A stretch of DNA of 64,000 bases from Dissulfuribacter thermophilus (GTDB lineage: Bacteria; Desulfobacterota; Dissulfuribacteria; Dissulfuribacterales; Dissulfuribacteraceae), in contig NZ_MAGO01000001.1 in assembly GCF_001687335.1 (NCBI RefSeq), forward strand, positions 1 through 64,000, in the 5' to 3' direction. The translations under genes were made by a program, and so were the position numbers. Position 1 is the stretch's first letter. Each line of letters begins with the position of its first letter. This document shows positions 48,598-53,913 of this stretch, one piece after another. The notes beneath the pieces are model-generated. The model was not told where the DNA came from, made no database searches, and saw only the letters and a program-made list of their open reading frames with translations.

Positions 48598-49668
48598 TCA
48601 ATCCACCTCGAGCTTAACTCTATTTGAGGGAGGCCCTTCAATAGGGTGAGGTCCTGAACTCACAATTGTCACCCAATAGGTATATGTACCTTTTGGGAGC
48701 TTGGTAGTGTCTTTGAATTGATTGTATCTTAAGGGTTCTCGATTCAAGACCTCAACAAGTCCTTTAGGCCCCCGCCTATAAACTCTGAACCCCTGCCCTT
48801 CACCTAGTTTTGCCTCCCAGTGAAGCTCTATACCATCTTTTCTTGGCACTGCAACTAGTTCCTCTGGAACAGCAATTTCACCTTTGGACTGTTCCTCAAG
48901 GGCAATCATCTCCAGTGACTCTAGTCCTGGAATAGGGGTCTGGCCAAATTTAAATATTGGCTCTATCTTATAAACATAGTCTTCATTTGAGCTCACATTT
49001 CTATCAATAAAATGAGTTGATTTATAATCTTCTTCTAAAAGCCTCCAATTTTTTTCATTTATTCTCCGCCTAAATATTTTATATACGAGCCTTGAAAGTT
49101 CTTTCTGGCCAACGAGTGTCCCATCTTCAAAATAGACCGGAGGTCGCCATTTGATTTCTACCACCCCATCTTTTCTATCAACGCCAATGGCTATGGGAAC
49201 ACTTGGCGGCGGATGCCATGAAAAGCTCACCTCATTTGAGAATTCACTCTTTGAAAACAACCCCTTAACTGTCCTAACCTTATAAAAATATCGGCCTCCA
49301 CGGACCAGAGTTCGATCCTCATAGGCCATTGTAATACCCCTTTTAAGCTTGCCCTTAAAGGGAATCCAAACCGGATTTTTAAAACGTCTAGGACATTCTA
49401 AACAACTATTGTCAGCACCAAAGGCCTTAAAAACCTCAAAGCCCTTTAATCCAACGATAGGACTTCCGTCTACATTCTTTACGGGCACTCCCCATGAAAG
49501 CACTACTCCATCCTTAGTTATAGTGTACTTAACGTCTTTGGGAGGCATCGGCTTTAAAGTGCCTGGTGGTACAGGAGGACTTTTCCTTCCACACCCCGGT
49601 GTCACAGCCAGAAGTAATGCAATTAATACATATATCCTGACAGGAGGTGCTAGAACTCTGCCAGCCAA
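48598..49668 (-). CDS. Fibronectin type III-like lipoprotein
   Basis: 356 residues. The signal peptide ends in the lipobox LLLAVTPGC, so it is probably anchored to the outer or inner membrane. The rest is two or three FN3-like beta domains (KDGVVLSWGVPVKNVDGSPI, VRGGRYFYKVRTVKG, and KDGVVEIKWRPPVYFEDGT). A TTG start is well supported by GAGGAGG seven bases upstream, and it overlaps the argH end by 19 bases. Function unknown. Genes like this between argH and lysA seem to be common in related genomes, but this is from memory. Confidence 0.83.
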   Translation of the reverse strand: MAGRVLAPPVRIYVLIALLLAVTPGCGRKSPPVPPGTLKPMPPKDVKYTITKDGVVLSWGVPVKNVDGSPIVGLKGFEVFKAFGADNSCLECPRRFKNPVWIPFKGKLKRGITMAYEDRTLVRGGRYFYKVRTVKGLFSKSEFSNEVSFSWHPPPSVPIAIGVDRKDGVVEIKWRPPVYFEDGTLVGQKELSRLVYKIFRRRINEKNWRLLEEDYKSTHFIDRNVSSNEDYVYKIEPIFKFGQTPIPGLESLEMIALEEQSKGEIAVPEELVAVPRKDGIELHWEAKLGEGQGFRVYRRGPKGLVEVLNREPLRYNQFKDTTKLPKGTYTYWVTIVSSGPHPIEGPPSNRVKLEVD

Positions 49669-51032
49669 CGCTCTGCCTCCTCAATGGCCTTTAACACCTG
49701 ATCAGGAGAGGTACCTCCGTATGAATTCCTTTTTTTGATAGAGCCATCAATACTCAAACGTTCAAAACAGTCCTCTTCAATCACTGAAGAAAAAGACCTG
49801 AGCTCATCTAAATCTAAGTCCCATAGCTCTTTGTTGTTCTCTATACAATAGGCCACTACACGCCCTACTACCTCATGAGCAGTCCTAAAAGGAACCCCTT
49901 TTTCTACCAAATAGTCTGCGAGATCAGTCGCTGTAAGATATCCGCTTTTTAACGCCTGGTTAAGACGTTCTTTTTTGGGAACCATCCCCCTCAAGACCCC
50001 TTCCATGACCTCTACACACGATCTCACTGTATCGCATGCATCAAAAAGGGGCTCTTTGTCCTCTTGAAGATCCCGGTTATATGCCATGGGAAGCCCCTTT
50101 ATGAGGGTCAAAATGGCAACAAGGTCCCCTATAACCCTGCCGGTCTTTCCTCTAATGAGTTCAGGACAGTCAGGATTCTTTTTCTGAGGCATGATGCTCG
50201 AACCAGTACAAAAACTATCAGGTAGCTCAACAAAAGAAAATTCTTCACTACTCCAAAGAATAAGTTCTTCTGAAAGCCTGCTTAAATGAATCATTATGAG
50301 GCTCGCACAGAAGATAAACTCTGCCACAAAATCCCTATCAGATACTGCATCCATACTGTTACGAGTCAATCCAGAAAACCCTAATTCTTCCCGAACATAT
50401 TCCCTATCGATTGGAAAATCTGTTCCTGCTAGTGCTGCAGAACCAAGAGGGCACACATCAACACGCTTCAATGTATCCCTTAAGCGTTCTCTGTCTCGTC
50501 TGAATTGTTCAAAATAGGCCATCATATGATGCGACCACAGGACTGGTTGTGCGTGCTGGAGGTGAGTAAAGCCAGGCATTGCATATCCCATATATTCCTT
50601 GGCCTGATAAAGAATAGCACCTTGCAACGAGGCCAAGGCCTTATCCAGGGAGTTTATCTCATCTTTGAGATAAAGTCGGATATCAGTTGCTACCTGATCA
50701 TTCCTGCTTCGAGCTGTATGAAGTCTCTTTCCAGGCTCTCCTATGAGCCGTGAGAGCTCTGCCTCAATGTTCATGTGAACATCTTCAAGTTTTTGATCCC
50801 AATGGAACTCGCCTTTGTCAATTTTTTCTTTGATGACACTGAGCCCCTCAACAATTCGCTCAGCATCATCCTTTGAGATGATGCCCTGTTTGGCCAACAT
50901 CCTGGCATGGGCCATACTGCCTTTTATGTCCCACCTATAGAGCCTTTTATCAAAGCTTACACTTTCAGTAAACCTTTCCACAAGTTCATGAGTCGATTCT
51001 TTAAACCGCCCTCCCCACGGCTTTTTTGCCAT
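49650..51032 (-). CDS. argH: Argininosuccinate lyase
   Basis: 460 residues, normal length; splits argininosuccinate into arginine and fumarate. N-terminal KPWGGRFKESTHELVERF and the superfamily signature GSSIMPQKKNPDCPEL with the catalytic Ser. AAAGGGGG precedes the ATG. The reading ends in the start region of the lipoprotein gene. Confidence 0.96.
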   Translation of the reverse strand: MAKKPWGGRFKESTHELVERFTESVSFDKRLYRWDIKGSMAHARMLAKQGIISKDDAERIVEGLSVIKEKIDKGEFHWDQKLEDVHMNIEAELSRLIGEPGKRLHTARSRNDQVATDIRLYLKDEINSLDKALASLQGAILYQAKEYMGYAMPGFTHLQHAQPVLWSHHMMAYFEQFRRDRERLRDTLKRVDVCPLGSAALAGTDFPIDREYVREELGFSGLTRNSMDAVSDRDFVAEFIFCASLIMIHLSRLSEELILWSSEEFSFVELPDSFCTGSSIMPQKKNPDCPELIRGKTGRVIGDLVAILTLIKGLPMAYNRDLQEDKEPLFDACDTVRSCVEVMEGVLRGMVPKKERLNQALKSGYLTATDLADYLVEKGVPFRTAHEVVGRVVAYCIENNKELWDLDLDELRSFSSVIEEDCFERLSIDGSIKKRNSYGGTSPDQVLKAIEEAERWLAEF

Positions 51033-51106: not shown

Positions 51107-51148
51107 TAAAAAAGCCTGCCCAATCATTTCAAAAGGACAGGCCTTTTT
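51107..51148 (-). terminator. Terminator of thioredoxin-like selenoprotein gene
   Basis: GCCTGTCC and GGGCAGGC pair on the minus strand around a 13-base loop, followed by TTTTTT; T-rich bases on the plus strand make it bidirectional. It lies just after the selenoprotein stop at 51171. Confidence 0.8.
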
Positions 51149-51170: not shown

Positions 51171-51740
51171 TTATAAAAGCCTATATGGATAGGCCCTCTT
51201 TGTCCACTCGCTGTCTGGAAAATTTTTTGTCAAATCTTCATAAGCCTCTTTTAACGGCTTTGGATCTTGAGTCAACTTATACTGAACAACGCCCTTTAAA
51301 AATAGCGCTTCAGGAGTAAAATCACTTTTTGGATATTGAATCACTATGTGTTCAAACCATTTCAAGGCCTCTTTCAGTTCATCTTTCTCAAAATAGCCCT
51401 TCCCAATTCCAAGATTCAATGATGGAATGAGCTCTTCTGAAGAAAGAAATCCCACTGTTCGGTGGTGCTCTTTCCCTGAATCATCAAGCGTAATTATGGT
51501 AGGGGTCCATTTCACATTGAATTCTTCTGAAAGTGGTTTTGCATCAAAGGCTATTCTTACCGGTATAAAATTTGATTCAATAAATTCTACAACCTTATTA
51601 TCTGGAAACGTAACTGCCTCCATCTGTTGACAACCAATTCATCCAGGATTAAAAAAATCCAGGAGCACAAACTTTCCTTCATTTTTGGCCATCTCCAAGG
51701 CGTTTTCCAAGGAATCTTGCCATGAGACCACTTTTGACAT
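51171..51740 (-). CDS. Thioredoxin-like selenoprotein with UxxC motif and TPR tail
   Basis: 189 residues when the in-frame TGA at 51639-51641 (codon 34) is read as selenocysteine. The site reads FVLLDFFNPG-U-IGCQQM, so U34-x-x-C37 replaces the CxxC of a thioredoxin active site. Before the TGA there is normal thioredoxin-like sequence; after it, VEFIESNFIPVRI, VKWTPTIITLDDSGKEHHR (cis-Pro) and a C-terminal TPR-like part (KDELKEALKWFEHIVIQYP). ATG at 51740 has GGAGGG five bases upstream, while an ATG at 51623 after the TGA has none and would lose half the fold. The SECIS is unclear: a 5-bp stem with one bulge follows the TGA by 7 bases. A redox role is likely; partner unknown. Confidence 0.82.
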
Positions 51741-51835
51741 AACTGCCCTCCTAATTTTATTTGCTATAAAAAATTATATATTTCACTTTATGAGAGTCAA
51801 CAAATATGACTGTCTGTTTTATGAGAACGGAATTT

Positions 51836-53005
51836 TTAATATAAAAGATATGCCTGTCGCATCTCACAAAAGGCTTCCTGATCTCGTCTAAGGACCTCTC
51901 TCAATCCAGTAGAATCCATACCATCCTCAACTAGCATTCTTATCTCCTGTTTTCCAATGAGGAGGTCCATTGGAAGCCTTTCAAATTCGTACTCATAGGG
52001 AGGGAGTTTATATGAAAAATCATCTTTAAAATGTCTCATGACAACGGATAATAGTGTAAGTGTGAACAAATAAGGTTCAAACTTATACCTATCTATCACA
52101 TGAATTTGAACGCCCTTACAAGTTTCTCCGTGCCATTTATGAAAAGTGGGCTCAAAGTATTGAGGTCTCAAATAAAAACCTTTTAGATCAGAACCTTCCA
52201 TTTCTCTCGAAATTACCTTGATATCAAGATACGGTGCACCAAACACCTCAAAAGGCCTAGTCGTACCTCTACCTTCTGAAAGATTAGTGCCTTCTAAAAG
52301 CACCTGCCCTGGGTAAACCAAAGCAGTATCAAGAGTCGGCATATTCGGAGAAGGCCATACCCACGGAAGTCCTGTTTCGTCAAAATACATTCGCCTATTC
52401 CATCCAGCCATTTTGATAACTTTGAGATCAAGATCCAGGCCGAATTCCCTTCTTAAATAGAGTGCGATCTCTCCAATAGTCATGCCGTGGCGCATGGGGA
52501 TCTGGGCCATCCCTACGAAAGAAAAGAAATCTGGGCTAAGCAGATTGCCCTCTACCCTTTCGCCTCCTAAAGGATTTGGCCTATCAAGGACCACCACCTT
52601 AATACCAGCCTTTGCTGCCTCCTTCATGCAAAGACACATGGTCCAAATATAGGTATAGACACGAGTACCCACATCCTGAAGGTCTATTATAAGACAGTCA
52701 ATATTTGAAAGACTGTCAGTACTGGGTTTACGCCTCTTTCCATACAGACTAAACACAGGGATACCCAAATCCTCATCGATCATGTCTTCTGACTCCACCA
52801 TATTATCCTGCTTGTCTGCATAGAGACCATGCTGCGGCGAAAAGAGGCACTTTAAATCCTTACCAAACAATTCAAAAAGGATATTTTTTGCCTGCCTTAG
52901 TCTAGAGTCTATTGAGGCCTGGTGACACAAAAGACCTATTCGTAGACCTTTTAATGGTCTTGGATCTAAAGCCAAACTCTCAAGTCCTGTTACAACCTTT
53001 GCCAT
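51836..53005 (-). CDS. NamZ-like exo-beta-N-acetylmuramidase (DUF1343)
   Basis: 389 residues of the DUF1343 family, whose studied member NamZ removes terminal N-acetylmuramic acid from peptidoglycan fragments. Visible family blocks: RIGLLCHQASID, SPQHGLYADKQDNMVESED, DLQDVGTRVYTYIWTM, VLDRPNPLGGERVEGN, and LLEGTNLSEGRGTTRPFEVFG. No signal peptide in this reading, so the location is uncertain. ATG at 53005 is preferred, with AAGGTG seven bases before it; a GTG at 53017 is also in frame. Confidence 0.88.
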   Translation of the reverse strand: MAKVVTGLESLALDPRPLKGLRIGLLCHQASIDSRLRQAKNILFELFGKDLKCLFSPQHGLYADKQDNMVESEDMIDEDLGIPVFSLYGKRRKPSTDSLSNIDCLIIDLQDVGTRVYTYIWTMCLCMKEAAKAGIKVVVLDRPNPLGGERVEGNLLSPDFFSFVGMAQIPMRHGMTIGEIALYLRREFGLDLDLKVIKMAGWNRRMYFDETGLPWVWPSPNMPTLDTALVYPGQVLLEGTNLSEGRGTTRPFEVFGAPYLDIKVISREMEGSDLKGFYLRPQYFEPTFHKWHGETCKGVQIHVIDRYKFEPYLFTLTLLSVVMRHFKDDFSYKLPPYEYEFERLPMDLLIGKQEIRMLVEDGMDSTGLREVLRRDQEAFCEMRQAYLLY

Positions 53006-53913
53006 CTCTCTTTGCACCTTTTTTTAATAATCCCAAATTATGCACTGCAAAAGGGGACAAACTGAATTTTTCATATAAGGATATGCAAATTCGAAATTCG
53101 AAGCACGAAATCCAAAACAGGGGGCAGCCCAGCAGACCAGTGGACGGGCAGTGGACCCCCTGTGGGACAAGGCCTCACTAGACGGACATGCTCCGCTAGG
53201 CCGAGCCTAATTTTTTTAGTTTTGAGTGTTGAGTTTTAAGTTGAAGGAATAGGGCTATTAAACGTTGCTTCCTCTAACTCAAAACTCATAACTCAAAACT
53301 CAACACTTTTAAATGGATGCCAGCTAGTCCGGCCAAGCGGAGCGCTGAGGAAAAAGCGAGACCATGTTCCGTTTGGAGCGCCTCCGCCATCCCATCCAAC
53401 GCCATTCCAGCCACCCCAATCCCATCTAATTTCATCCCATCCCATTCGTTACTGATAATAAAATCTAACCGACCACAGGACACTCAAGATACAAGGGAAA
53501 GGACGCCAAGACTATTATCCCGGATTATGCACTTCAAATGCCTGAAGAAAGTAATTTCTATGAATTATTGCATAGTTAACATGCATCGATTCCCGTTGTG
53601 CCTTCACTCAAAAGGTAAAGTTCAATCCGTGATAAATCCTCAGGCATTTGAAGCCGCTAGGGGCTCGCAATTTTACCGAATCTGCTTTGTTGTCGGGCAC
53701 TTGAAGTACCAAAGTACGTCTGCTGCCCTCCGCCTCGCATCTTCGGCAAACTTGCGAGCTGCATAATCCGGGATTATGGCGCTTTGTTAAAATTGCCGTT
53801 TGTTATATTAAATATCCAGATTTGCCTCTTTTGCCGTGCAGAATTTAGGTTAAAATAAAGAACCTTATAGAGGTCTCTTCTAATTACCTAAATACAATGC
53901 TAAACTAGCTTAA
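53006..53913. repeat. Large intergenic block of repeats
   Basis: 908 bases without a convincing gene. Contents in order: half family A (53032-53060, reversed); composite E (53192-53305) with facing family B arms; a patch of ATCCCAT/CCATTCC short tandem pieces (about 53385-53455); family A element with 17-base ends (53514-53777); half family A (53818-53849). Small open frames at 53286-53483 (-) and 53317-53766 (+) overlap these repeats and are not accepted as genes. I cannot place the ClC gene's promoter. Confidence 0.7.
53514..53777. repeat. Large family A element (264 bp)
   Basis: ATTATCCCGGATTATGC at 53514-53530 and its inverted copy at 53761-53777 (16 of 17). The right interior (AAGTACGTCTGCTGCCCTCC, GCATCTTCGGCAAACTTGCG) matches copy 1 at 6446-6550, while about 150 bases in the middle are private. 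No transposase frame, so a non-autonomous element at most. Confidence 0.75.

Follow-up and report, generated by a model that had tools for sequence, protein, structure and literature searches.

Within the 64,000 nucleotides of Dissulfuribacter thermophilus DNA analysed here (the window), a gene on the minus strand encodes a predicted thioredoxin-like selenoprotein with a helical tail. Its frame runs from ATG to TAA with a sole internal stop, a TGA at codon 34, set in the context LLDFFNPG-TGA-IGCQQMEAVTF where a thioredoxin CxxC motif has its first Cys (Table 1). An earlier note on this DNA had located this TGA correctly, and the strong ribosome-binding site that it placed before the upstream ATG and the terminator that it placed after the stop are likewise found, all on the minus strand. 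The loop of the terminator-like hairpin, at 13 nt, is longer than the limit of the terminator scanner and the element was identified by reading the sequence; the promoter is called by consensus match alone, promoter-like sites having been found 5 times against 3 expected. Because the gene has its own promoter-like site, and a hairpin with a T run after its TAA, it looks monocistronic between the NamZ-type gene and argH.

Table 1. Features of the selenoprotein locus and its flanks (window coordinates)
Feature	Position	Strand	Remarks
Predicted selenoprotein gene, 189-codon ORF	51171..51740	minus	ATG 51740-51738, TAA 51173-51171; thioredoxin-like domain residues 1 to ~107, TPR tail ~110 to 189
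TGA, codon 34, U of UIGC	51639..51641	minus	almost certainly read as selenocysteine; TGA at this site in 102/125 relatives, Cys in most others
TGT codon, Cys37 (resolving Cys of UxxC)	51630..51632	minus	invariant in 16-sequence alignment
WTPT motif, residues 78-81	51498..51509	minus	W78, T79 and P80 invariant in 16-sequence alignment
Candidate bSECIS hairpin	51603..51622	minus	6-7 bp stem; 6-nt apical loop AGUUAC (51615-51610), G second; loop starts 23 nt after UGA
Ribosome-binding site AGGAGG	51747..51752	minus	6 nt 5' of ATG; read from sequence
Sigma-70-like promoter TTGACT-N16-TATAAT	51773..51800	minus	11/12 consensus matches
Terminator-like hairpin GCCTGTCC...GGGCAGGC then TTTTTT	about 51108..51142	minus	8-bp stem; read from sequence
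Downstream neighbour argH (argininosuccinate lyase)	49650..51032	minus	outside the system
Upstream neighbour, NamZ-type exo-beta-N-acetylmuramidase	51836..53017	minus	outside the system

When all six frames of the window were scanned for codon usage, no in-frame TGA other than codon 34 had strongly coding sequence both before and after it. The fold continues in frame past the TGA, as had been proposed: about 125 distinct relatives conserve the protein sequence of the 155 downstream codons, in which the third codon position has changed more often than the first or the second. Judged by coding potential on both sides, by the conserved downstream protein and by the bias of changes towards position 3, the open frame across the TGA is not chance. 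An in-frame TGA that is flanked by coding sequence on both sides and conserved in relatives is the pattern by which a selenoprotein gene is recognised, and codon 34 is almost certainly read as selenocysteine (Sec). Were the TGA instead a true stop or a sequencing error, the gene would be broken or would encode two proteins, one of 33 residues and one of 150 starting at ATG 51623; this downstream ORF does have its own ATG and is what standard gene callers would annotate. We consider this reading extremely improbable, given that the identical TGA recurs in 102 distinct relatives that span many families, that the forms with Cys at the site are one uninterrupted protein, that the 150-residue ORF lacks both active-site residues as well as the start of the fold, and that the RNA hairpin described below is retained only where the TGA is present. 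The codon-usage scan, and a looser version of it, gave nothing convincing as a second selenoprotein in the 64 kb window, and the earlier note's claim of two selenoproteins within 22 kb is not borne out inside it.

The gene belongs to a family that is widespread in the phylum. A search of 60 relatives recovered the full-length version with one TGA in 15 genomes, the window's own included. Across the phylum the family is present in 83 of 395 genomes sampled, and within the order of Geomonas in 49 of 141, where the TGA form is common; repeating the phylum search with Geomonas as its centre covered essentially the same sample. The active site of 125 distinct relatives from the phylum reads UxxC (TGA) in 102, CxxC in 15 and CxxS in 6, the other two being without a motif recognised by the search pattern, and the usual form is UIGCQQM or UIGCKQM. 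The earlier note had proposed an alignment with Cys homologues and had counted homologues lacking Cys or Sec at this position against its reading. The position is conserved, with Cys at the site in 21 of the 23 relatives that are not UxxC, and the objection does not apply, since only 2 of the 125 are without a recognised motif. Homologues with Cys in place of Sec (L052, a Geomonas-like clade, L082 and L083) provide the Sec/Cys pairing typical of selenoprotein families.

The family tree calls for four switches between Sec and non-Sec: one for a distant clade without Sec, two for isolated cases and one for a 12-member Cys clade that sits inside the Sec forms of the Geomonas order. Members of this last clade (L186, L187, L189-L191, L193-L198 and L143) have mostly decayed hairpins and have kept selA. 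More broadly, selA is kept in all 20 Cys-form genomes checked from the Geomonas order, so that the replacement of Sec by Cys evidently took place without loss of the Sec trait. Among TGA-form genomes selA is present in 33 of 36, and the three without it include incomplete assemblies. The family is present in duplicate or triplicate in some genomes (L093, L094, L095 and L141); the matches in L094 and L095 stop near residue 145, the tail being short or divergent.

Bacterial SECIS elements have been modelled as a hairpin with a loop of 3-9 nt that lies 16-37 nt after the UGA and has a G in its first two positions, on a stem of 4-16 bp, with a minimum free energy at or below -7.5 (PMC13188914). 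The window hairpin conforms to this model in the position and sequence of its loop (Table 1), in its 7-bp stem and in its energy of -7.8 kcal/mol, which corresponds to a z of -3.05 when the hairpin is folded in isolation. Taken alone it is modest, with p about 0.06 against synonymous shuffles and about 0.11 with a stricter null. The case for a SECIS element rests on the family, not on the single window hairpin.

The earlier note had suggested looking for conservation of the downstream stem in close genomes, and in TGA-form relatives the stem proved to be both conserved and covarying. A stem of 6 bp (nucleotides 21-26 with 33-38, counted from the U of UGA) is paired in 97.8 % of cells among the first 15 TGA forms, against 24-66 % for the same stem slid to other positions; eight cells show changes on both sides of the stem, that is covariation, and RNAalifold recovers the same stem unaided. 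All 102 TGA forms have a hairpin that obeys the published bSECIS rules on position, loop and stem with an energy of -3 kcal/mol or below (94 of them at -5 or below), and position 28, in the loop, is G in every one of them. The median hairpin energy is -8.0 kcal/mol in TGA forms versus -1.2 in Cys forms, where the hairpin is mostly gone (Mann-Whitney p = 8e-11, relatedness not corrected). Compared with synonymous shuffles that draw on the codon usage of the rest of each gene, TGA forms have a mean z of -4.6 and Cys forms one of 0.0; under the stricter null, with codon usage taken from the hairpin region itself, the values are -2.0 and -0.3.

The hairpin has left an imprint on the protein. Residues 41 and 45, which lie 7 and 11 positions after Sec, are linked in TGA forms (D:Y 57, G:Y 24, E:F 8, N:Y 8), and they covary because their codons pair in the RNA stem. 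Codon choice is also biased: at the Thr codon, ACG is used by 71 of 74 TGA forms versus 2 of 15 Cys forms. The SECIS hairpin constrains the protein sequence, and the constraint is released where Sec became Cys.

Full machinery for Sec insertion, as expected of a genome that encodes selenoproteins, is present in this assembly (2.52 Mb, 27 contigs, 99.97 % complete): selA (579 bits, cut-off 268), selB (367 bits, cut-off 242), selD and a tRNA-Sec (selC) with UCA anticodon. The earlier note had suggested a selenium-using organism and had named absence of selABCD as the finding that would speak against its reading; the organism does have the genes, and that objection falls away. SelD, encoded on another contig (L010 1501-2424), carries an in-frame TGA and is itself likely a selenoprotein.

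The genome also holds a second SelB above the curated cut-off (C11:19880-21757), directly downstream of a tRNA-Sec-like gene with a GCA anticodon and U73. Together the SelB gene and this tRNA with its Cys anticodon occupy C11:19880-21882 (L002 1405-3390 and L014 1501-1589, both minus strand), and the pair fits the combination of selC* tRNA-Cys and selB* that Mukai and colleagues described (PMC7609411). A title cited in PMC8762117 also reports that a non-canonical tRNA-Cys, together with SelB, recodes the Sec UGA as cysteine. These precedents raise the reading that the UGA of codon 34 is translated as cysteine by the genome's second system. However, because a GCA anticodon reads UGC and UGU, not UGA, the selC*/selB* system is unlikely to decode codon 34, and a normal UCA tRNA-Sec and SelB are present as well; we regard cysteine at this codon as highly improbable and retain Sec as the residue at position 34.

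Residues 1 to ~107 match Pfam thioredoxin-clan families above the gathering score, Thioredoxin_2 at 54.5 bits (cut-off 27, E=1.6e-14) and Thioredoxin_7 at 38.1 (cut-off 27), as expected of an oxidoreductase of this fold, and in profile searches the same region finds DsbD gamma domains and a structure of the PDI type. Across 16 aligned sequences there is no variation at C37 or W78-T79-P80, and position 34 is always Sec or Cys, which gives the protein both the U/CxxC motif and, in WTPT, what we take to be the cis-proline loop of the thioredoxin fold. The TPR-like tail described in the earlier note is probably of the TPR family: residues ~110-184 match the TPRs of CpoB, BamD and YbgF in profile searches with E down to 2e-11, and TPR_6, at 25.5 bits (E=1.9e-5), falls just under its gathering score of 26.3. 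An AlphaFold2 model built on a 3-sequence alignment has good confidence in the helical tail and a low mean pLDDT of 53 in the thioredoxin part; since the predicted structure is poor there, the fold assignment rests on the profile matches. No signal peptide is evident by eye in the 189-residue protein, so that it is probably cytosolic.

We propose that the locus is a real selenoprotein gene and that its product is most probably a Sec-dependent reductase of thiol-disulfide (or selenenyl-sulfide) bonds, which would work in the cytosol and dock clients through its TPR tail. SelB, acting on the hairpin 23 nt after the UGA, would deliver Sec-tRNA-Sec with its UCA anticodon to codon 34, and translation would proceed to the TAA to yield the full 189 residues. 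At the active site, Sec34-Ile-Gly-Cys37, the selenolate would attack a client disulfide or other oxidised sulfur, Cys37 would resolve the mixed selenenyl-sulfide, and a cytosolic reductant would restore the Sec34/Cys37 pair. The presumed donor is thioredoxin reductase (TrxR), which is encoded in the genome above its curated cut-off, and the C-terminal TPR-like helices most likely dock the client or a partner protein. Sequence evidence supplies the elements on which this scheme is built, from the recoded codon and its SECIS hairpin to the Sec machinery, the UxxC site and the domains; we infer reduction as the catalytic direction, TrxR as the electron source and client docking by the TPR tail.

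The same domain order, thioredoxin then TPR, and the probable cytosolic location are also those of CnoX (YbbN), and CnoX of Caulobacter combines an active CxxC with constitutive chaperone function (PMC8129009). By analogy, the protein could be a chaperedoxin-like holdase whose TPR tail holds unfolded clients while Sec34 shields their thiols through reversible mixed bonds. This we find rather unlikely: the profile search is led by DsbD gamma, PDI-like and CpoB/BamD-type TPR matches, with CnoX (3QOU) absent among the best 60; the tail has ~80 residues, whereas the TPR region of CnoX is far longer, with ten helices; and the gene has no chaperonin neighbour. A broader proposal, which we put forward only tentatively and do not expect to be correct, is that anaerobic Desulfobacterota-type bacteria have kept the Sec form of a selenium-dependent, chaperedoxin-like cytosolic Trx-TPR factor in which the TPR selects clients and Sec34 repairs or shields their cysteines. 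Part of the same tentative proposal is that such a factor would be missing from curated family libraries through gene callers cutting the protein at the UGA.

For the reductase that we favour, gene neighbourhoods were considered as a guide to the substrate and rejected, as no neighbour is common to the whole phylum and the surroundings differ between lineages. The fixed partner that the earlier note had read from the TPR tail finds no support in these varying neighbourhoods. A cardiolipin-synthase-like gene lies next downstream in 28 loci, seen only in the search of the Geomonas/Geobacter order. In several genomes of the Geomonas order (L199, L200, L201, L203 and L204) the selenoprotein gene lies 3-7 kb from selA beside this cardiolipin-synthase-like gene, in some of them with an HtpX-like gene also nearby, an arrangement absent from the window's genome. 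We set nearness to selA aside as a functional link, as genes intervene, some on the opposite strand, and selA is ~130 kb away in the window's genome.

One neighbourhood bears on the electron donor. In two relatives of one genus, a glutaredoxin gene and the catalytic chain of ferredoxin-thioredoxin reductase (FTR) follow the gene directly downstream on the same strand, in an apparent operon (L023 2158-2747, plus strand; L025 205-788, minus strand), which suggests a ferredoxin-driven relay to which the protein would belong. This arrangement occurs in only 2 of 126 loci, and the window's genome has no FTR catalytic chain; we thus rejected FTR as the electron donor here and think membership of such a relay improbable. 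TrxR remains the presumed donor.

The window gene is a solid member of a known protein type and as such is not surprising: a UxxC thioredoxin-like selenoprotein is expected in a selenium-using anaerobe, and many related anaerobes have this gene too, in most cases recoded at the same codon. The value added here lies in evidence from a whole family, large and mainly in the Sec form (102 of the 125 members collected), and in an RNA constraint that is visible in the protein. The Geomonas-like clade, in which Sec was swapped for Cys with selA kept, offers a natural experiment on the purpose of Sec.

UxxC thioredoxin-like selenoproteins are an established kind, and the window protein can be placed among several known systems. 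No NCBIfam model reaches its cut-off on it, and genomes therefore usually show the truncated 150-residue ORF. TsoB and the Trx-like NCBIfam selenoproteins (NF045694, NF041383 and NF041199) likewise have a thioredoxin fold with Sec, and TsoB is the best NCBIfam match (E=4e-15), yet it scores 54.8 bits against a cut-off of 805; scores for the whole group are far under the curated cut-offs, and architecture and motifs differ. A Sec-containing thioredoxin (Trx, UxxC) also has Sec for the first active-site Cys, but the window protein scores 29.6 against the equivalog cut-off of 96.8 and has an additional TPR tail. CnoX shares a cytosolic thioredoxin domain followed by TPR; however, it is not close in sequence, and the window protein has a short tail and Sec instead of Ser or Cys, which places it outside CnoX. 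The closest thioredoxin-type domain by profile is the C-terminal (gamma) domain of DsbD. The full-length DsbD model gives 46.7 bits against a cut-off of 330, with the C-terminal domain matched only, and the window protein, which has no membrane domain or evident signal peptide and carries a TPR tail, is not a DsbD.

A close counterpart is the selenoprotein listed as 'thiol:disulfide interchange protein'. By 2006 it had been reported as a prediction from Geobacter metallireducens, G. uraniireducens and Syntrophus aciditrophicus, with only 3 genes counted in that year (PMC1794560), and it stands in a 2026 inventory as a PF13098 protein with UxxC (WP_011366075.1; PMC13188914). Neither list mentions a TPR tail, but the Pfam family is that of the best match here, and the UxxC motif and the bacterial group are the same. 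Compared by Pfam family, motif and host range only, the Trx-TPR family described here is probably this same 'thiol:disulfide interchange protein' family.
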